From the NCBI RefSeq assembly GCF_016107655.1, contig NZ_JABASX010000005.1:62001-126000 (forward strand): a stretch of DNA of 64,000 nucleotides, given 5' to 3'. Numbering within the stretch: position 1 is the first letter of the stretch; the number at the start of each line of letters is the position of its first letter. The position numbers and the translations under genes are program-made. Positions 48,546-58,952 of the stretch are shown here, piece after piece. Below the pieces are notes generated by a model. The model saw only the letters and a list, made by a program, of their open reading frames with translations. It made no database searches and was not told the origin of the DNA. Source of the stretch: Brevibacterium antiquum. GTDB lineage: Bacteria > Actinomycetota > Actinomycetes > Actinomycetales > Brevibacteriaceae.

Positions 48546-48919
48546 GGGGATGATCGGTTTCGACGTCGGACACTGCGACGGGAGAAGCGGGCCGAGAATG
48601 TAGAGTCATCTCGTTAATGTCCTCTGCAAAACAATAGGTGCTAAGTCTAATAACCGCACCGATTTCGCCCTCGCTGCCTGATTAGGCCGAGCTGCGAATC
48701 CGTCAGTCTAGAGTTGCTTCCACTCTAGGTCCTGGCGTCGCTTAGGGAGCCACTGCTTCAGATATTCGTTGAGGGTATCTGAGGGACTTTTACTCAACTC
48801 CGTTCGTTGGTCCACATGTTCGTGTGAGGGCCAGAACCTAAGAAACTACTTCACGAACTGCGCCCGGAGAAGTCCTGACAATCTGCCGACGGACGCGGGT
48901 TCGATTCCCGCCATCTCCA
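48546..48919 (+). ncRNA. ssrA: Transfer-messenger RNA (tmRNA)
   Basis: The 5' end GGGGATG pairs with CATCTCC at 48912-48918, with A48919 as discriminator; CCA is not encoded. GGACGCGGGTTCGATTCCCGCC before the 3' end is the T arm. The tag open frame runs 48640-48681 (GCT AAG ... GCC TGA) and encodes AKSNNRTDFALAA, with the conserved ALAA end recognised by ClpXP-type proteases. The 3' end is about 155 nt after smpB begins its gap, and a terminator follows at once. I found no duplicated 3' segment that would mark an integrated element. Confidence 0.96.
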
Positions 48920-48928
48920 CAGATAGTC

Positions 48929-49963: not shown

Positions 49964-51616
49964 CTACGAGTTCACGCGAATAACTTCCTCCTGATACGGC
50001 GCAATGACCGCGCCCGAGATCCGCAGATCGAGGACCAGGAACTTCCGTTCGGCGACCGGTGTCGCCTTCCACTCGTTGACCACCTCGAGGTCGGCCAGCG
50101 AATGGACGGCAACACCGTGCCCTCCTGCCGCACTGCCCAGCGCCGCGAAGTCGATCTCATCGATGAGCATCGGTGCCTTATTCAATCCCTTGAGTCCGTA
50201 CAGATTCACCTCGGCACCATAGGCGGCATCATTGAACACGACGGCCATGCCGCGGCCTCCGGCTGAACGGATTGCGGTGTCGAGGTCTGACAGGGCCATG
50301 GCGCCGCCCCCGTCGCCGGTGGTGAGAACGATCGTCGAATCCTGATTGGCGCGTGCCGCACCTGCAACGCTGTGCCAGCCGAGACCGATCGACTGGAACG
50401 CAGTGCCGACCATCGCCAGACGATCGGGTGCGCTGGGCTCCCAGAACATGTTCGCCCACGCGATGAAGTGACCGCCGTCGGAGACGACGACTCGGTCCTC
50501 GGGCATCAGCTCACCGAGGCGTGCCGCCGCAGCACGTGGATCCAGGCGACCATCCTCGGCGAATTCCGTACCCATTTCGTAGGCCCGGTCGGCAGCCGTA
50601 TCCACGGTCTCGCGCCACCCGCTCGCTACCGCACCCGAGGCCTCCAGTCGTGTGACCAGCTCGCCCGCAGCAAGCTTCACATCGCCGCGGATGAAACCCC
50701 CGACCCGGGCATTCGTGGCCCGATCATCGGTGTCGATCTGCCAGACCGCAGTCGATGGGTGGAACAGCTCGCCGAAGCGCATCGTGAACTGGTTGAGCGA
50801 AGCCCCGAAGACGACGGCGAGGTCAGCCTCACGGATTCGCTCCATGGCCTCAGGGGCACCGAACCCTCCGGCCACGCCGAGGTCATGGTCGGCGTCTGGG
50901 AAGACATTGCGGCCAAGAGCGGTCGTCGTAGTCAACGCCCCTGTGGCTTCTGCCAGGGCGCCGAGCTCGGCCTCTGCACCGGCCAACCACGCTCCTCGGC
51001 CGGCCAGCAGGATCGGTCGTTCCGCCTCGGCGAGGGCAGCCGTCAGACGATCGAGCGAGGTCTGTGAGAACTCGGACGAGGGTGCCAGGGGAGTGGGTCG
51101 TCCGGGTCCTGGAACCGAGGGAACCTCCCCGATGTCGAGGGTTGCGACATCGTAGGGGATCGCGAGGACGACGGGCACTCGGTACGTCAGCGCGTGCTCG
51201 ATTGCGGTGACTGTCGCGGCCGCCGCATCGACGCGTCCGACGGTATAGGTGCGCACACCCACCGCCGAGGCCATAGCGATCTGGTCGACGTCCCAGGGAC
51301 GCGGCCCGGACGTGGGTTCGTCACCGACGACAAGGACGAGGGGAACATTGGCCTGCGCAGCCTCGGCCAGCGCAGTGAGGGTGTTCGTGAACCCGGCGCC
51401 GTAGGTGGTGGTGGCCGCAGCGATTCTACCGGAGGTGCGGAAGTGCGCATCGGCGGCGACGACGGCGCCGGCTTCGTGTCGAACGGCAGTGTAGGTCGCC
51501 GAGGTGGAGGTCAGCAGAGCATCGAGGAAGTAGGCGTTGCCGTTGCCCATGAGTCCGAAGACTTCATCGATGTGGTGGGCCAGAGTGTGGGCGACGTGTG
51601 CCGAAGTGTGAGCCAT
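49964..51616 (-). CDS. Thiamine-diphosphate enzyme (acetolactate synthase-like), second paralogue
   Basis: 550 residues of the three-domain ThDP fold. RHEAGAVVAADAHF holds the catalytic Glu of the pyrimidine domain. The ThDP/metal motif begins GDGGGAMALSDLDTAIR and ends VFNDAAYG in place of the usual GDG...NN. The FAD-domain sequence is weak. Related enzymes are 2-oxo-acid decarboxylases, sulfoacetaldehyde acetyltransferases and acetolactate synthases; valine/isoleucine synthesis is unlikely without a small subunit. The ATG at 51616 has AAAGG upstream. It follows the symporter gene on the minus strand but is separated by a 325-bp gap with a hairpin. Confidence 0.75.
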   Translation of the reverse strand: MAHTSAHVAHTLAHHIDEVFGLMGNGNAYFLDALLTSTSATYTAVRHEAGAVVAADAHFRTSGRIAAATTTYGAGFTNTLTALAEAAQANVPLVLVVGDEPTSGPRPWDVDQIAMASAVGVRTYTVGRVDAAAATVTAIEHALTYRVPVVLAIPYDVATLDIGEVPSVPGPGRPTPLAPSSEFSQTSLDRLTAALAEAERPILLAGRGAWLAGAEAELGALAEATGALTTTTALGRNVFPDADHDLGVAGGFGAPEAMERIREADLAVVFGASLNQFTMRFGELFHPSTAVWQIDTDDRATNARVGGFIRGDVKLAAGELVTRLEASGAVASGWRETVDTAADRAYEMGTEFAEDGRLDPRAAAARLGELMPEDRVVVSDGGHFIAWANMFWEPSAPDRLAMVGTAFQSIGLGWHSVAGAARANQDSTIVLTTGDGGGAMALSDLDTAIRSAGGRGMAVVFNDAAYGAEVNLYGLKGLNKAPMLIDEIDFAALGSAAGGHGVAVHSLADLEVVNEWKATPVAERKFLVLDLRISGAVIAPYQEEVIRVNS

Positions 51617-51840
51617 CAGGGGCCTTTCGCGGATGAGAGATATGGAAGAGAACGATCCATATGTGTCTCACACGCGATTTCCGCGGCTTCGCGCTCCTTT
51701 TTCGAGCGCCGGCTGTTCGGCAGCAACCGGATTCGACGTTGGCACCGGCCTGACCATTCGAATATAGATCACGGCAGGCCGGTCGGCAAAGTTCTGCTGG
51801 TCCACATGGACCTGCTGCACCGAGAAACGGGCCGAACGTC

Positions 51841-51887
51841 GAAAAACGCACGCGCGCATGAGAGATTCGACGCAGCGTGCGTTTCTC
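51841..51887. terminator. Hairpin between symporter and second ThDP gene
   Basis: 13-nt arms 51841-51853 and 51875-51887 pair with one mismatch around a 21-nt loop. They lie in the 325-bp gap (51617-51941) after the symporter stop on the minus strand. The rest of that gap, which contains the probable promoter of the ThDP gene, shows nothing else I can support. Confidence 0.6.
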
Positions 51888-51941
51888 GATGGCAGCTCCG
51901 CAGCGCAGCCAGCTGTGGGGTTGCTGGTGGCTGGGTGCCTG

Positions 51942-53459
51942 CTACCGGTTCAGGCGTTCCTTCCATGCGGCCATGACCTCCGGTGGTGTCGGCTTCGATG
52001 CCAGGGAGCCGATGACGTAGCCGAGCAGTGAGGCGATGAGACCCAGGTAGATGGCCTCGTTCGAGTAGATTCCCATGGTGATCATGATGACGATCGTGGT
52101 GAGTGAACCCAGGATCATGCCCGCCATGACGCCGATGATGTTGCCGCGTTTGAAGATCAGCCCACCGAGGATCGGGATGAACAGTCCCGCTACCAGCAGG
52201 TTGTAGGCGACCGTCAGTGCCTCGACGACACTGGGCATGATCATCGCAAGGATGAGGGTGACGACGCCGAGTCCGATGAGGTAGATGCGAGAATCACGGA
52301 TCTCGTCTCCGGTCTCGCGGACCAGGGACTTCACCAGCGTCGACTTCCTCGCCCCGCCGGAGCTGAGAGGAGAATCGTCGCCGTGCACCGAATCGGCGTC
52401 ACCGGCCGATTCGGCAGTCACCGGAACGATGTCCTTGCGAGCAAGCAGGGGTTCGACGATGTCCTGACGGCACACCGTCGCAGCCGCCATGAGCGAGCCC
52501 GACGCCGTTGACATCATGGCTGCCAGTGCCGCGGCGAGGACGAGTCCGCCCAGCAGCGGCGACATCGCAGCGTCGACGACGGCGACGAACACATCGTCTT
52601 GGACTTCGATGCCGGGAACGATCTTCGTGGCGGCCATGCCGATGAGCGCACCGGCCACAGCGTAGAGCAGGCAGTAGATGCCTGCGGAGAGCCCACCCCA
52701 CCTGGCCACGCCCGGGCTGCGCGCGGTGAACACTCGCTGCCAGATGTCCTGGCCGATGAGCAGTCCCAGTGTGTAGATGAGGATGTAGCCCAGTATCGCC
52801 TGCCAGCCGATGCCGACCGGACTGGTCTGCTCGGCAGGCATCGAGGCGAACAGTTCGGTGATGCCACCGGACTTGTTCAGCACGATCGGCAGCATGATGA
52901 GGAAGATGCCGATGGTCTGGATGAAGAACTGCACGAAGTCGGTCAGCGTGATCGACCACATTCCGCCGAGCATCGAATAGAGGATGACGATTCCGCCGCC
53001 GATGAGCACCGACCAGAACTTATTGATGTCGAAGAGCGCGTGGAAGATCGTCGCATAGGCGACCGTCGACGTCGTCGAGATCATCAGCCCGTAGGCGGTC
53101 ATGATCGCGCCCGAGACCAGGCGGGAGCCTTTTCCGTACCGCAGCTCCAGCATCTGCGAGACCGTGTAGATCTCCAGCTTCTGGATCCTCGGAGCGAAGA
53201 ACAGCGAGAGCGCGATGATGCCCAGGCCGATGCTGAAGACGAGCCACATCCCCGACAGCCCCGAGGTGTAGCCGAGGCCGACGCCGCCGATCGTCGAGGC
53301 CCCGCCGAGAACGACGGCGGACATCGTGCCCGTGTACAGCCACCCGCCCAGGCGGCGGCCTGCGACCAGGAAATCGTCCTGATTCTTCGCCTTGTACCGG
53401 CCCCAGATTCCGAATCCCACCATTGCGGCGAGATAGATGATGACGACTAGAGAGTCCAC
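51942..53459 (-). CDS. Sodium:solute symporter (SSS family)
   Basis: 505 residues from the GTG at 53459 (AAAGGG upstream). About thirteen helices. FGIWGRYKAKNQDDFLVAGRRLGGWLYTGTMSAVVLGGASTIGGVGLGY is the N-terminal SSS signature, with the sodium-binding region of LeuT-fold transporters. A cytoplasmic insertion (about 345-375) is acidic and serine-rich. It would import an organic substrate with Na+. Its position between two ThDP genes and a ureohydrolase suggests a guanidino or amino compound, but SSS substrates cannot be read from sequence. Confidence 0.87.
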   Translation of the reverse strand: MDSLVVIIYLAAMVGFGIWGRYKAKNQDDFLVAGRRLGGWLYTGTMSAVVLGGASTIGGVGLGYTSGLSGMWLVFSIGLGIIALSLFFAPRIQKLEIYTVSQMLELRYGKGSRLVSGAIMTAYGLMISTTSTVAYATIFHALFDINKFWSVLIGGGIVILYSMLGGMWSITLTDFVQFFIQTIGIFLIMLPIVLNKSGGITELFASMPAEQTSPVGIGWQAILGYILIYTLGLLIGQDIWQRVFTARSPGVARWGGLSAGIYCLLYAVAGALIGMAATKIVPGIEVQDDVFVAVVDAAMSPLLGGLVLAAALAAMMSTASGSLMAAATVCRQDIVEPLLARKDIVPVTAESAGDADSVHGDDSPLSSGGARKSTLVKSLVRETGDEIRDSRIYLIGLGVVTLILAMIMPSVVEALTVAYNLLVAGLFIPILGGLIFKRGNIIGVMAGMILGSLTTIVIMITMGIYSNEAIYLGLIASLLGYVIGSLASKPTPPEVMAAWKERLNR

Positions 53460-53508
53460 GTCGACCCTTTCATGATTGATTGCGCGGGCAATCGGCTAAG
53501 TGGGTGCC

Positions 53509-55194
53509 TCAGCACCCGACGGTGATGTGAATGGTGGTGGGAATGGTCCGATCGAGCGCCTCGGCGACGGCGGTCGGGAGCAGCTCGTCGATGTCGGACT
53601 CAGCAATCGTGACTCCGGCCCCGCCCATGGACTGGCCCAGGGCCGCGAAGTCGGGACGGGCGAGTCTGACTGCGAACGGCTCGATCGTCCGGTCGACCAT
53701 CTGAGCTTCGATTTCGGCGTATCCGCCGTTGTCGACGATGACGAAGGGAATCCCCAACCCCAGTTCGCCCGCCGTCATCAGCTCCTGGATGGAGAACATG
53801 GCAGCTCCGTCTCCGAGGATGCAGGCAACCGGACGCGCACTGTCGGCCAGCTTTGCCCCGATGGCCGCAGGAATTCCATAGCCCAAGGTCGCAAAACCGG
53901 GCATGTAGAGCAGCTGGTCGGGTGTGCTGGCCGTGAGCGCGTGCACCGATCCGTCGTACGTGACCTGGGACGAGTCCCCGGCGATGACCACGGACGGTCC
54001 CGCGCCCTGTTCGACGAGGCGAGTGACACGAGCGCCGATGGACTCGAAGTCGAAGTCCGAACCCCAGGAGGCTCGGATCTCCTGAACGCGTTCGGCTCCG
54101 CTTCCGGTGGAGGTGACTTCTCTCGCCGAGGTGGTCGTGGGCGCGTTCTCGTCCAGCTCGGTCATCAGTGCGGTGAGGAATTCCCCTGCATCGGCGCAGG
54201 CGAGGATGTCCCCGCCGAGGTTCTTGCCCAGCTGATCGGGGTCGATATCGCAGCGGATGACGACCTGAGTGGAGGCCTCGTCGCGGATGCCAGCCGATGT
54301 CTGGGCGCCGATGAGTCCGCCCCAGAGGTCGGAGTCGGCGAGTTCGGAGCCGAGGACGATGAGCACATCGGCTGACGCGGACTCGGCTTGAACGCTGGGG
54401 AAGCGAACGTTGGAGCCCAAGGACAGCGGGTGGTCCTCGGAGATGATGCCCTTGCCATTGGCGGTTGTGGCCACAGGGGCCTCGAGTTCCTCCGCGAATG
54501 CCCTGACCTCGGCGCTCGCCTTGCGGGCCCCGCCACCGGCGATGATGAGCGGACGACTTGCACTGCCCACCGCCTCGGCGGCACGGGAGACTACTCGTGG
54601 ATCCAGGCCCGGACGGCGGCCCGGGATCTGCGTCGGCACACTGCCGTTCCAGACGCCTTCGAGCACGTCGAGGGGAACCTCGATGTGCACGGGACCGGGA
54701 CGTGAGGAGGAGAACATGGCGAACGCTTCGGCGACGGCCTGCGCAGCACCCTCGGCCGTGCGGGTGCGCTGAGAGGAGACCAACAGGCGGTTCAGCGCCC
54801 CGGAGGAGTCCTTTGTCTCATGGAGCATTCCGACATCGGCGCGCTCGAGCCCGGTGGGAACACCGGGGGAGAGGATGAGCATCGGGCGTGACTCCGCATA
54901 GGCGGTCGCCGCGGCCGTGATGACATTCGTCAGCCCCGGACCCGAGGTGGTGATGACGACTCCGGGTTTGCCGGAGACGAGGAAATATCCGTCGGCACCG
55001 TAGCCGGCACCCTGCTCGTGGCGTGGTGTGATGGCACGGATGCCGAATTCGCTCAGGTGTCGGTAGAACTCGAGGTTGTGTGTGCCGGGAATTCCGAAGA
55101 TCGTGTCGACGCCGTGCGCGGCCAGGGTCGCGATGACGGCCCGGCCGCCGTTGCGGAACTCCTCGCCGGGCGTGGTGTTCTTGTCATCTGCCAT
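53509..55194 (-). CDS. Thiamine-diphosphate-dependent enzyme, AruI/acetolactate synthase-like
   Basis: 561 residues from the ATG at 55194, two bases from the end of the ureohydrolase gene. The catalytic Glu is in PRHEQGAGYGADGYF; FGIPGTHNLEFYRHL is typical of the family; the ThDP motif runs GDGAAMFSIQELMTAGELGLGIPFVIVDNGGY. No acetolactate synthase regulatory subunit is nearby. Coupling to a ureohydrolase fits 2-ketoarginine decarboxylase (AruI) of the arginine transaminase route, which makes 4-guanidinobutyraldehyde. That activity is inferred from context; pyruvate or other keto acids cannot be excluded. Confidence 0.78.
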   Translation of the reverse strand: MADDKNTTPGEEFRNGGRAVIATLAAHGVDTIFGIPGTHNLEFYRHLSEFGIRAITPRHEQGAGYGADGYFLVSGKPGVVITTSGPGLTNVITAAATAYAESRPMLILSPGVPTGLERADVGMLHETKDSSGALNRLLVSSQRTRTAEGAAQAVAEAFAMFSSSRPGPVHIEVPLDVLEGVWNGSVPTQIPGRRPGLDPRVVSRAAEAVGSASRPLIIAGGGARKASAEVRAFAEELEAPVATTANGKGIISEDHPLSLGSNVRFPSVQAESASADVLIVLGSELADSDLWGGLIGAQTSAGIRDEASTQVVIRCDIDPDQLGKNLGGDILACADAGEFLTALMTELDENAPTTTSAREVTSTGSGAERVQEIRASWGSDFDFESIGARVTRLVEQGAGPSVVIAGDSSQVTYDGSVHALTASTPDQLLYMPGFATLGYGIPAAIGAKLADSARPVACILGDGAAMFSIQELMTAGELGLGIPFVIVDNGGYAEIEAQMVDRTIEPFAVRLARPDFAALGQSMGGAGVTIAESDIDELLPTAVAEALDRTIPTTIHITVGC

Positions 55195-55196
55195 CG

Positions 55197-56207
55197 TCAG
55201 ACTCCGAGTGCTTCGCCGCTGGGGCCCGACGGTCCGGTGAGACCATTGGCCTCGGCGGCCCACAGGGAGAGCATTTCGTAGCCGACGTGGGCGGCGGCGA
55301 GTCCGGTGATCTCGGCATGGTCATAGGCGGGCGCCACTTCGACGATCTCGGCTCCGACGACGTTGAGTCCCTGCAGTCCGCGAATCGAGTTGAGCAGTTC
55401 GCGGCTCGTCATGCCGCCGGCCTCGGGGGTGCCTGTGCCAGGGGCGGCAGCAGGGTCGAGGACGTCGATGTCGACCGACAGGTAGACGGGTGCATCGCCG
55501 AGTCGTCTGCGCATCCGTGCCACGACTTCCTGGACGGACGTGAACTGGTAGTCGTCGCTGCGGATGATCTGGAATCCGAGCACAGCATCGTCTTCTAGGT
55601 CCTTTTCGCCGTAGAGGGGTCCGCGGATGCCGACATGCATGCAGGACTCGAGGTCGAGCAGGCCTTCTTCGCTGGCACGGCGGAACGGGGTGCCGTGCGT
55701 GTACGGGGCACCGAAGTAGGTGTCCCAGGTGTCGAGGTGGGCGTCGAAGTGCAGGACCGCGATCTTACCGTGCGTCTTGTGCAGGGACCGCAGGTTCGGC
55801 AGGGCCAGTGTGTGGTCGCCGCCGAGTGTGAGCAGCTTCGCCCCATCGGCGCGCATCTCATCGGCGGTCCGTTCGACTTCGGTGATGGCCTCTTCGATGT
55901 CGAAGGGGTTGACGCCCAGGTCACCGCAGTCGGCGACCTGCTGCCAGGTGAACGCGTGGACGTTCGTTGCCTGGTTGTAGGGGCGCAGCAGCTTGGAGGA
56001 CTGGCGGATGTGGGCGGGGCCGAATCGTGCTCCCGGACGGTAGCTGACGCCGGCGTCGAAGGGGACTCCGAGGATCTTGACGTCGATCTTCTCACCCGGT
56101 CGCTGTGCTTCGACCTCGTCGATGCGCGGGAGCAGGCCGAAGGTCGGTGGCCCCGCGAAACGTGGTGTCTGGCTGTAATCGGCTGGTCCAATGGGCTGAG
56201 TCGACAT
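55197..56207 (-). CDS. Ureohydrolase (agmatinase/guanidinobutyrase family)
   Basis: 336 residues. Binuclear manganese signatures: [22 protein letters not shown] (the DAHxD box) and [29 protein letters not shown] (the DxDxxDP box). The start ATG at 56207 has AGAGGAGAG upstream. The family covers agmatinase, 4-guanidinobutyrase, proclavaminate amidinohydrolase and arginase; the GTGTPEAGG sequence favours the agmatinase/guanidinobutyrase branch. Products would be urea and putrescine, or urea and GABA. It is first in a minus-strand set with the ThDP enzyme and symporter, and divergent from the PucR gene. Confidence 0.87.
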
Positions 56208-56285
56208 CGGCTCTCCTCTGAATTCGTGAGTGTTCTCGGTGGTGTGTGATTGCCATCAGCCTAGGACGTGGCTCACACAACGCGA

Positions 56286-56335
56286 ATATCCATCATGGTG
56301 TATTTGGAAAAACGGATATCCATTGCGGATAGTAT
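56286..56335 (+). promoter_or_regulatory. Divergent promoter with ATATCCAT repeats before pucR-like gene
   Basis: ATATCCAT occurs at 56286-56293 and 56316-56323, exactly 30 bp apart (three helical turns); an inverted, shorter ATGGAT follows at 56334. GGATATCC (56314-56321) is an 8-bp palindrome. TAGTAT (56330-56335) is a plausible -10 for the plus strand, placing the start site near the ATG at 56343. These are candidate PucR-type sites governing both genes. Confidence 0.5.
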
Positions 56336-56342
56336 GGATCTC

Positions 56343-57806
56343 ATGGTCACCTTGGGTCAGCTCTGGGCACGTCAGGAACTCGCGCTCGACGTCGTCGTCG
56401 ATTCGCCGAGCGCCGGATCGGCCGACGTTACGATCGTGCACTCCTCGGAGCTGCCCGCGGTCGACGAATGGTTGGCCGGGGGAGAGGTCCTGCTCACGAT
56501 CGGCGTCGGCCAGGACCTCGGCGGCGAGGGCGTGGGTGACTATGTCCGGCGCCTCAAGCGTGTGGGTGTCCTTGCACTCGGCATCGGCCTGGGTTCCGCT
56601 TTGCCGTGGCAGGCGCTTCCACCGGCACTGATCGAGCACGCAGAAGCTCACGGGCTTCCACTGTTCGGGGTCCCCGAACCTGTTCCGTTCGTCGCAGTCG
56701 TCGATGCCTTCACGAGAATGCGTGAGGAGGAGACGAACCGAGAGCTCACCCGGGCCAGCAGTGCGGGGCGGCGGTTCGCCACCGACCTCGCACACCAGGG
56801 GCCCGCCGCGCTTGTCGCTGATCTGGCCAGCACTTTGGGCACGGACGTTCGGTTCGTCTCACCCACAGGCAGGGGACTGACCGGCACCGATGCCGAGAAC
56901 CTTGTGCGTCATGACCTGATTGCCGAAGCTCTCAAACCCTCGATGGCCCCACGTCTTCTGCGTACTGAGCTGGGAATCGTCGAAGCCGTTCCGGTCGGAG
57001 ACGAGCAGGTTCGAGGATGGATCCTCGCCCCCGCCGAGGTGACCGGCAATCCGCGCACCCGTGGCCTGCTGCTGTCCACTGCAGCGGCACTGCTGAGTCT
57101 GAGCATCACAGAGGTCCCACCTCGGCGATCGGATTCAGAGCTCTTCACGACTCCCTTGACGGCAGGACAGGCTCGGGCCGAGTGGGTGCGTGAGACCGGC
57201 CTGGCTCCGGTCTCGCGAGTGAAGTTCACGGTCTTCGGCAATGTGCGTGGCGGGGACCCGGAGACGCTGCTGGGTGATCTGGGTGATGGAACACTCCTGG
57301 TCCGCGCCGGTTCGATGCTCGGGGTCATCGAACCCGGTACTCAGAGTGCGGACCCGGGCCGCCTCGATGCGGCCGAACTGGCAGCGGATCATGCCAGTAC
57401 GGTCGATCGGGTTGCGGAGGTCACCGGACTCGAGAGGCTGTTTGCGAAGATGATCCCACTGACCCAGGTCCACCACACCTGGACCGTATGGCGAACGCAG
57501 CACGAAAGCGCGACCTCGGATGTGCGGGCGCTGCTGTCGTCGATCGATGAGTCAGCGGCGCAGAGATTCGTCGACCGAGTACTGGGCACACTCCTGGCCT
57601 CACGCGACGAACAGGACCTGCTGCTGACGCTGCGATCGTTCATCGCAGCAGGAGGAGTGCGGGATGCGATCGCTGCTGAACTCGGCATCCACCGCCACAC
57701 AGTGCGTGCACGGATGGCAAAGATCGAGACGCTGTTGGGCCGCGACCTGAACCAGGCCGAATCGGTCCAAGCCGTAGCCTTGGCCCTTGAGCTTGCAGAA
57801 CTCTGA
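56343..57806 (+). CDS. PucR-family transcriptional regulator
   Basis: 487 residues from the ATG at 56343; ATG 56334 and GTG 56268 are alternatives. The N-terminal PucR domain (about 5-125) has IVHSSELPAVDEWLAGGEVLLTIGVG, the family's ligand-sensing region. A middle GGDEF-like part is weak. The C-terminal helix-turn-helix has RSFIAAGGVRDAIAAELGIHRHTVRARMAKIETLLGRDL (HTH_30). Known members control purine, polyamine, GABA or proline catabolism, usually as activators responding to the substrate. Divergent orientation to the ureohydrolase gene makes that cluster the likely target. Confidence 0.87.
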   Translation: MVTLGQLWARQELALDVVVDSPSAGSADVTIVHSSELPAVDEWLAGGEVLLTIGVGQDLGGEGVGDYVRRLKRVGVLALGIGLGSALPWQALPPALIEHAEAHGLPLFGVPEPVPFVAVVDAFTRMREEETNRELTRASSAGRRFATDLAHQGPAALVADLASTLGTDVRFVSPTGRGLTGTDAENLVRHDLIAEALKPSMAPRLLRTELGIVEAVPVGDEQVRGWILAPAEVTGNPRTRGLLLSTAAALLSLSITEVPPRRSDSELFTTPLTAGQARAEWVRETGLAPVSRVKFTVFGNVRGGDPETLLGDLGDGTLLVRAGSMLGVIEPGTQSADPGRLDAAELAADHASTVDRVAEVTGLERLFAKMIPLTQVHHTWTVWRTQHESATSDVRALLSSIDESAAQRFVDRVLGTLLASRDEQDLLLTLRSFIAAGGVRDAIAAELGIHRHTVRARMAKIETLLGRDLNQAESVQAVALALELAEL

Positions 57807-57842: not shown

Positions 57843-58952
57843 TCAGCCGACGTGCTCGGAGTAGAAGGCTGCGGCGACCGCGAGGACACGGTCGAGACCT
57901 TCTTGTTCACCGATGCTGATACGCACCCCGTCGCCGAGGTTGCGCACCGCAACGGCCTGCTCGACGCAGGCATCTTCAAAGGCTGCCGACAGCTGGCCAA
58001 GTGGCAGCCACACGAAGTTCCCCTGCGCCTCAGGTACGTCCCACCCCTGGTCGCGCAGCGCGTGGGCGAAGCCGTCGCGAACGGCTGCGATCTCCTTGGC
58101 TCGGACGTCGACTTCATCGCTGTGGCGCAGTGATTCCAGAGCGGCCGCCTGGCTGATATCGGTGACACCGAAGGGGATGACGGCCTTCAGCAGCCCTTGG
58201 ATCACGGCGGTGCGAGCGAGGGCGTATCCGACTCGCAGGCCTGCCAGGGCATGAGCCTTGGAGAAGGTCCTGACCAGGACGACATTGGGATGATCGGCCA
58301 CAAGGTCGACGCCATTGACGACGCCCTCGGCGGTGGCGAACTCCCAATAGGCCTCGTCGAGGGCGATGAGCACATGGTCTGGCACCTGTGTGAGGAACCG
58401 GCGGACCTCATCGTCGCGAAGTGCTGGTCCCGTCGGATTGTTCGGGGAACAGAGAATGATGAGAGTGGTTCGATCGGTGATCGCCGCCGCCATGGCGTCC
58501 AGATCGTGTCGACCGTCGTCGCGCACCGGCACCTCGATCCGTTTCGAGCCGGCCAGCCCTGTCGTCTGGGGATACATTTCGAATGACGGCCAGGGGTAGA
58601 TCGCTTCCGTGGTGGCGTCCGAAGTGATCTGGGTCAGTGCCACGAGCAGTTCGCTGGCGCCGGTGGTCACGACGAGTTCATCGATGCTCACGCCGAGGCG
58701 CTCGGCCAGCTCGGTGCGCAGCGCCAGTGCTCCGTCATCGGGGTACAGAGCCGGGTTCTTCGCGTGAGCGACCATGGCGTCGGTGACCGCCGGCAGCGGC
58801 TCGAGGTAGTTTTCGTTCGAGGACAGCTTGAACGAGGCGAGCCCGTCGATTCGCTTGGGCGCCTTCCCCGGAACGTACGGCGGGAATGTTGTCAGCGAGG
58901 CCCGCAGCCGCGGGGTCGAAGTGCTGCCAGCAGAGGTGTCCGGAGAGTTCAT
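57843..58952 (-). CDS. HisC/Pat-like class I/II aminotransferase
   Basis: 369 residues, fold-type I PLP enzyme. LSSNENYLEPLPAV matches the HisC start (SxNExPxGP-like); CSPNNPTGPALRDDEV and LIALDEAYWEF hold the Asn, Asp and Tyr contacts; the Schiff-base Lys is in VRTFSKAHALAGLRVGY. In actinobacteria this subgroup includes histidinol-phosphate aminotransferase and the aromatic aminotransferase Pat. Without his genes nearby Pat is more likely. Convergent with the PucR gene by 36 bp. A role as the amino-acid transaminase of the neighbouring island is possible but unproven. Confidence 0.84.
   Translation of the reverse strand: MNSPDTSAGSTSTPRLRASLTTFPPYVPGKAPKRIDGLASFKLSSNENYLEPLPAVTDAMVAHAKNPALYPDDGALALRTELAERLGVSIDELVVTTGASELLVALTQITSDATTEAIYPWPSFEMYPQTTGLAGSKRIEVPVRDDGRHDLDAMAAAITDRTTLIILCSPNNPTGPALRDDEVRRFLTQVPDHVLIALDEAYWEFATAEGVVNGVDLVADHPNVVLVRTFSKAHALAGLRVGYALARTAVIQGLLKAVIPFGVTDISQAAALESLRHSDEVDVRAKEIAAVRDGFAHALRDQGWDVPEAQGNFVWLPLGQLSAAFEDACVEQAVAVRNLGDGVRISIGEQEGLDRVLAVAAAFYSEHVG

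Follow-up and report, generated by a model that had tools for sequence, protein, structure and literature searches.

A PucR-linked repeat pair and a conserved ureohydrolase operon, probably for guanidino-acid catabolism, in Brevibacterium

The closest described system to the locus studied here is the gbu cluster of Pseudomonas aeruginosa (L124), which holds a LysR gene, gbuA, a symporter of the SSS family, a thiamine diphosphate (ThDP) enzyme of the NF005712 type and a flavin adenine dinucleotide (FAD) oxidoreductase; its ureohydrolase is identical to the GbuA of structure 3nio in 304 of 304 compared residues. A ThDP decarboxylase and a ureohydrolase likewise work on arginine-derived compounds in the arginine transaminase route, represented by AruH/AruI in P. 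aeruginosa and by AspC/IlvB1 with SpeB2 in Sinorhizobium meliloti (PMC7268258). Here we describe a ureohydrolase, a ThDP enzyme (ThDP1) and an SSS-family symporter encoded divergently from a PucR-type regulator in Brevibacterium antiquum. The analysed window (G000:C20:62001-126000) is the whole stretch of 64,000 nucleotides, part of a 4.25 Mb genome.

We read this triad, with a probability of roughly 60%, as one operon that is switched on by the divergent PucR and breaks down guanidino acids derived from arginine. The guanidino-acid assignment is well supported by gene context. The pathway type was already known; the new finding is a conserved pair of inverted repeats next to PucR.

A conserved triad beside a PucR-type regulator

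The operon and its control region comprise the following features, in window coordinates.
55197..56207, minus strand: ureohydrolase, probable guanidino acid hydrolase, 4-guanidinobutyrate favoured (PF00491, 311 bits)
53509..55194, minus strand: ThDP1, predicted AruI-like 2-keto acid decarboxylase (three TPP domains, NF005712 the best model)
51942..53459, minus strand: SSS-family symporter, probable guanidino-acid importer (SSF, 103 bits)
56343..57806, plus strand: PucR-type regulator (PF07905, 74 bits; PF13556, 58 bits), start moved from GTG 56268
56317..56331: distal inverted repeat, TATCCGCAATGGATA in the ureohydrolase direction
56287..56301: proximal inverted repeat, imperfect in the window (9/12 positions)
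56258..56263, minus strand: TAGGCT, probable -10 box, 23 nt past the proximal repeat

An earlier note on this DNA had placed here a ureohydrolase, two ThDP enzymes, a symporter, a PucR and an aminotransferase, and domain matches recovered all of them at their positions. The 2-nt gap it had seen between the ureohydrolase and the first ThDP enzyme was reproduced, counted between the stop codon of the ureohydrolase and the ATG of ThDP1 at 55194; a longer ThDP1 open reading frame (ORF) reaching 55263 is an artefact of a GTG further upstream. ThDP1 and the symporter gene are separated by 49 nt. In an alignment of 15 loci the conserved PucR start is ATG 56343 (487 amino acids), which, rather than the listed GTG 56268, is probably the true start. 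With this correction the stretch between the ureohydrolase and PucR genes measures 135 nt.

Matches to ThDP1 of at least 57% identity were present in 46 of 49 Brevibacterium genomes, and none was found at E 1e-60 in 30 genomes from the order's other families. ThDP1 led us to 38 named loci, 37 from Brevibacterium and one from Pseudonocardia nigra. The ureohydrolase gene adjoins ThDP1 in all 38, and the symporter gene comes next in each of the 37 that extend far enough (L090 stops within ThDP1). One counter-example to the triad is genome G016 (L047), whose ThDP1 is 61% identical and in which the symporter search gave no match. An adjacent PucR was found in 30 of the 37 named Brevibacterium loci and also, at 35% identity, in Pseudonocardia. 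The conserved unit is the ureohydrolase–ThDP1–symporter triad, rather than a larger gene set.

The triad and the P. aeruginosa gbu cluster have in common a GbuA-like ureohydrolase, an SSS symporter (46.9% identical), an AruI-like ThDP enzyme and a divergent regulator. This agreement bears out the part of the earlier note that proposed a guanidino-compound pathway with its own importer beside a divergent PucR; the second ThDP enzyme (ThDP2), which the note had counted in, falls outside the unit. The two systems differ in that Brevibacterium has PucR in place of LysR, that its ureohydrolase (42% identity) and ThDP enzyme (37%) belong to another clade and subclade, respectively, and that its operon lacks the cytosine permease and the FAD oxidoreductase. 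Four actinobacterial loci from one genus (L160, L181, L182 and L185) also combine a divergent PucR with the same three gene types, whereas they place the SSS gene first, use a ThDP enzyme of a distant clade (~32% identity) and have another conserved promoter element. That element, AACGTACACTTC (GAANNGTACNNTTC in four of five), is shared by the PucR regions of L160, L181, L182, L183 and L185 and lies shortly upstream of a TAG-type box.

Related clusters occur on plasmids. Roseateles (L126:3822-17203) and Shinella (L175) share a nearly identical cluster of Lrp, permease, ureohydrolase, ThDP enzyme and aldehyde dehydrogenase (ALDH) genes, followed by two other genes and then by D-amino acid dehydrogenase, racemase and RidA; judged by its gene content, it likely encodes the whole route from arginine to gamma-aminobutyrate (GABA). 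On an Arthrobacter NicSoilB11 plasmid (L123:189-10725) a set of symporter, cupin regulator, ureohydrolase and ThDP genes is present twice, in inverted orientation, and one of the two sets appears broken in its ureohydrolase and symporter.

The repeat pair between the operon and PucR

The intergenic region contains two 15-bp inverted repeats of the form TATCCANNNTGGATA, 30-31 bp apart. We scored the window and the 38 loci for the best pair lying 29-32 bp apart and at most 300 bp upstream of the ureohydrolase gene, with a cut-off of 17/24. The pair reached this cut-off in all 31 Brevibacterium loci that have an adjacent PucR, only nine of which were unseen before scoring, the motif having been derived from an alignment of 15 and seven more having been viewed beforehand. 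It did so in none of the seven PucR-less loci (best 16, L082) and in none of 4656 background windows (best 16), a set made up of 2328 stretches taken in both orientations, although the motif is palindromic. The spacing is 30 bp in 28 loci and 31 bp in three. In L077, L081 and L083 the PucR is only 35-42% identical, yet the pair and its spacing are kept. Used as an exact pattern, the pair was found in 28 of 57 genomes of the genus; this pattern misses the window, where the proximal repeat is imperfect. The palindrome TRTCCRNNNYGGAYA occurs at five places in the genome, and only the intergenic copy has TATCC; among the other four, the one inspected (C20:41405) falls within a called ORF. The repeat motif was not seen in the Pseudonocardia, Embleya or other actinobacterial PucR regions examined.

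A TAGGCT-like hexamer follows the proximal repeat at 23 nt in 29 of the 31 loci and at 24 nt in two; by a rough estimate, a -10-like pattern alone would be expected by chance in about one in ten sequences. A simple promoter and terminator scan gave no signal above chance. With TAGGCT as the -10 box, the two repeats would have their centres near -43 and -73, a classical position for an activator. The repeat pair probably serves as the switch of the operon: PucR would bind both repeats on the same DNA face, 30 bp apart, and would recruit RNA polymerase in response to a guanidino acid or to something formed from it.

We give about even odds to a more specific proposal, namely that a guanidino-acid-sensing PucR activates the operon from two TATCCANNNTGGATA operators some three helical turns apart just upstream of the promoter, that the system is genus-wide in Brevibacterium, and that this gbu-type operon was assembled separately from the Pseudomonas one. 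Separate assembly is suggested because the ureohydrolase clade, the ThDP subclade and the regulator all differ. A literature search that excluded most subscription journals found no paper joining PucR with guanidinobutyrate, Brevibacterium with guanidinobutyrate, or the PucR family with an operator inverted repeat.

In one Brevibacterium (G327, L208:7805-7849) a second copy of the operator pair lies between a MatC/CitMHS-type carrier and a cytosine-type permease. A wider regulon is possible.

Substrates and order of the enzyme steps

In the proposed pathway the symporter would bring in the guanidino acid, and ThDP1 would decarboxylate 2-ketoarginine (or 5-amino-2-oxopentanoate) to a four-carbon aldehyde. 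A dehydrogenase encoded elsewhere would turn the aldehyde into the acid. Urea would then be split off by the ureohydrolase, with 4-guanidinobutyrate as the most likely substrate, and the resulting GABA would be taken onward by a GABA transaminase whose gene lies elsewhere.

The translated ureohydrolase carries the metal-ligand motifs GGDH, DAHxD and DIDxxD, and among solved structures it matches GbuA (272 bits) and GpuA (256 bits) most closely. Its identities in an alignment of 31 sequences are 42% with GbuA, 44% with GpuA, 40% with proclavaminate amidinohydrolase (PAH) and 46% with a SpeB segment. IQ-TREE placed it in an actinobacterial clade of 22 (support 98), outside the proteobacterial GbuA+GpuA clade (88), PAH and SpeB; the trees contained no arginase, and L076, which has no called ureohydrolase ORF, was left out of the 31-sequence tree. 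The phylogeny that the earlier note had called for thus separates the enzyme from SpeB and does not join it to characterised GbuA either (separate clade, bootstrap 98). Nor does it group with GpuA, though the two have a tyrosine in common at the GpuA Tyr157 column. The note had warned of two other identities. An arginase is not indicated, the arginase model giving 77.9 bits against a cut-off of 227.6. With PAH no robust grouping emerged, as the two programs placed it differently: FastTree put PAH beside the actinobacterial clade (0.98) and IQ-TREE put it beside GbuA/GpuA (69), separate from that clade (98). The enzyme passes the agmatinase model TIGR01230 (221 bits, cut-off 174.3), yet SpeB lies outside its clade (bootstrap 98), and by this placement it is probably no agmatinase.

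Embleya and Tsukamurella ureohydrolases are clade mates of the Brevibacterium enzyme (97 in IQ-TREE; 0.99 in the 31-sequence tree). In Tsukamurella the ureohydrolase is accompanied by a permease, a carbon-nitrogen hydrolase and an amine oxidoreductase, the last of which matches the L-amino acid oxidase/monooxygenase 3we0 at 677 bits; in Embleya, a PucR relative is divergent from a cytosine-type permease, a carbon-nitrogen hydrolase and the ureohydrolase. One route to GABA runs from arginine through 4-guanidinobutyramide and 4-guanidinobutyrate, and by analogy both neighbourhoods fit it. We favour 4-guanidinobutyrate as the substrate because these clade mates adjoin an amidase and, in Tsukamurella, also a relative of the L-amino-acid oxidase/monooxygenase. 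A zinc guanidinobutyrase is described from another actinobacterium, Arthrobacter sp. KUJ 8602, where it is identical with the D-arginase of that strain (PMC11271267).

ThDP1 has the catalytic glutamate (RHEQG) and the GDG-N motif (GDGAAM...VDN). In a 28-sequence tree it falls with the ThDP enzymes of gbu-type clusters (99) and apart from IlvB, Gcl, Oxc and ThDP2, in a subclade (100) different from that of the P. aeruginosa and Roseateles enzymes and including neighbours of amidohydrolases or of an acyl-CoA dehydrogenase. ThDP enzymes of three clades occur beside ureohydrolases. A clavulanate-like pair of CeaS and PAH was considered and rejected: carboxyethylarginine synthase (1upa) matched ThDP1 at only 105.5 bits, against 192.3 for its best match in the PDB. 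Relatives of ThDP1 (44-46%) at L051:7752-12118 and L125:4158-10252 are accompanied by amidohydrolases and a C-terminal-binding-type dehydrogenase, a setting that may represent an undescribed pathway using the same enzyme clade.

The symporter's nearest relatives outside the Actinomycetota, in plasmid records, are the P. aeruginosa gbu symporter and another at 46.2% identity, which lies near a GpuA-like ureohydrolase, an omega-aminotransferase and a methylmalonate-semialdehyde dehydrogenase. Relatives of about 51% identity on Streptomyces plasmids (L172, L173) stand beside a thioesterase and a 3-keto-5-aminohexanoate cleavage protein, and one of these two loci also has a divergent PucR. Judged by these relatives, the symporter likely carries either a guanidino acid or an amino acid related to one.

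Several observations weigh against the guanidino-acid operon as we propose it. The best NCBIfam model for ThDP1, NF005712 ('5-guanidino-2-oxopentanoate decarboxylase'), gives 446.5 bits against a cut-off of 500 (883.5 for the P. aeruginosa gbu-cluster enzyme, 733.3 for that of Roseateles), and the closest tree relatives of ThDP1, Pseudonocardia excepted, adjoin amidohydrolases, not ureohydrolases. At other actinobacterial ureohydrolase places (55-66% identity) a ThDP gene is adjacent in only seven of 27, six in one genus and one in another; five of the seven have a symporter and five a PucR. Unlike the arginine transaminase route, the operon holds no dedicated transaminase or aldehyde dehydrogenase. 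All 31 operator-bearing loci belong to one genus, and the pair in the Pseudonocardia locus, where PucR and triad are present, scores just 12. To these are added a residue in the ureohydrolase and the preferences of an S. meliloti enzyme, each of which bears on an alternative.

The residue is a tyrosine at the column of GbuA Met161, as in GpuA (Tyr157; residue roles from PMC10833137). It would suit an operon that handles a different linear guanidino acid, above all 3-guanidinopropionate (or a broad range including taurocyamine), and yields beta-alanine and urea, with ThDP1 acting on a different keto acid. So would the identities given above, which are higher to GpuA than to GbuA (44% vs 42%), and the symporter, nearly as close to its relative beside the GpuA-like ureohydrolase and beta-alanine-type genes as to that of gbu (46.2% vs 46.9%). 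However, the guanidinobutyrase of A. niger also has tyrosine in this column (Tyr218; PMC10833137), no beta-alanine genes were observed among the neighbours of the triad, and the AruI-like ThDP partners, together with the amidase and oxidoreductase neighbours of the clade mates, point to a four-carbon chain; we consider this alternative unlikely. The ureohydrolase keeps arginine at GbuA position 72. Given this GpuA-like tyrosine in the specificity loop, we treat 4-guanidinobutyrate as an inferred substrate.

The S. meliloti homologue of AruI is sevenfold more active on 5-amino-oxopentanoate (PMC7268258), so that the order of the ThDP and ureohydrolase steps is not fixed. In a reversed order the ureohydrolase would act first, on 2-ketoarginine or 4-guanidinobutyraldehyde, and ThDP1 would then decarboxylate 5-amino-2-oxopentanoate. 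The breadth of S. meliloti SpeB2, which accepts all three guanidino compounds, and the preference of IlvB1 for the amino keto acid (PMC7268258) would allow this, as would the sub-cut-off score of ThDP1. The Tsukamurella and Embleya clade mates, on the other hand, adjoin an amidase and no ThDP gene, and the ureohydrolase there acts most simply on the acid, which makes the reversed order quite improbable in our view.

Neighbouring genes and wider meaning

Three further features flank the operon.
51839..51889, minus strand: terminator-like hairpin with a U run, 3' of the symporter gene
49964..51616, minus strand: ThDP2, a separate unit, probably outside the pathway (three TPP domains)
57843..58952, minus strand: HisC/Pat-like class I/II aminotransferase, convergent to PucR, of uncertain relevance

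The hairpin has a folding energy of -39.7 kcal/mol (z -4.1), equalled in one of 200 shuffles. ThDP2 does not simply close the operon, because it starts 325 nt past the symporter and behind this strong hairpin. It is only distantly related to ThDP1 (23% identity) and lacks an operator: allowing at most two mismatches, the window holds a single match, the distal repeat. In the 33 testable loci, which leave out five that end before the ThDP2 position (L064, L068, L070, L075 and L090), ThDP2 was found in 23, directly after the symporter in 18 and at 3.7-4.7 kb in five; it was not found near the triad in the other ten. We regard it as a neighbour in its own unit, probably outside the pathway. The idea in the earlier note that two ThDP paralogues serve two keto acids found no support, given this distance, the separate unit without operator and the lack of conservation with the triad.

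Model NF002878 matches the HisC/Pat-like gene above its cut-off (408.7 bits against 374), and the genome carries two better HisC matches elsewhere. The gene lies near the triad in 33 of 38 loci and not beside it in five, and nothing indicates arginine transamination; its role as a transaminase source, which the note had suggested, found no support. A five- to six-gene pathway including it and ThDP2 would account for its position immediately upstream of the ureohydrolase gene, on the same strand, in six of seven PucR-less loci, and for the 18 loci in which ThDP2 directly follows the symporter. The hairpin, the missing operator, the scattered or absent ThDP2 of the remaining testable loci and the two better HisC matches all argue against such a pathway, and so does genome G053 (L155:8106-13097), where a ThDP2 relative stands beside an Lrp/AsnC regulator, its own NF002878-type aminotransferase and an amino acid permease, with the ureohydrolase on another contig. 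We find the larger pathway very improbable, and both genes probably lie outside the operon. The ThDP2 relative and aminotransferase of G053 are possibly an amino acid transaminase-decarboxylase pair.

Elsewhere in the genome a GABA transaminase scores over its cut-off (602 bits, C16:437924). There are 23 ALDH-like places, none above the PatD cut-off, and the Tsukamurella oxidoreductase as query gave no matches at 1e-20 in this genome, in a search without a positive control. The earlier note had remarked that a guanidinobutyraldehyde dehydrogenase is missing from the window. Such an absence is no objection to the proposed pathway, because the genome offers these ALDH-like places and because the shown stretch of the P. 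aeruginosa cluster has no annotated ALDH either. The genome has just one other ureohydrolase place (C5:12153); it is 52% identical and overlaps a ThDP gene by 4 nt, and therefore both ureohydrolases of the genome have a ThDP partner. The C5 ThDP enzyme scores 471.8 bits to NF005712, below the cut-off, and groups with the P. aeruginosa type; its module (L033:7877-12992) also has an MFS-type transporter upstream and a gene that by eye is Lrp-like. Close past ThDP2 lies a tmRNA gene (window 48546-48920) with the tag AKSNNRTDFALAA.

Ureohydrolase family names are often wrong. One cyanobacterial member turned out to be a guanidine hydrolase. The same enzyme had earlier been predicted as a guanidinobutyrase (PMC2242806), and the enzyme called 'agmatinase' in humans hydrolyses guanidino acids (PMC9772407). 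The Brevibacterium locus offers a clean test case, with a probable non-agmatinase that passes the agmatinase model and a ThDP partner of debatable name. The operator motif provides a handle for asking what such PucR proteins sense, and it predicts, locus by locus, which Brevibacteria retain or have lost the switch.

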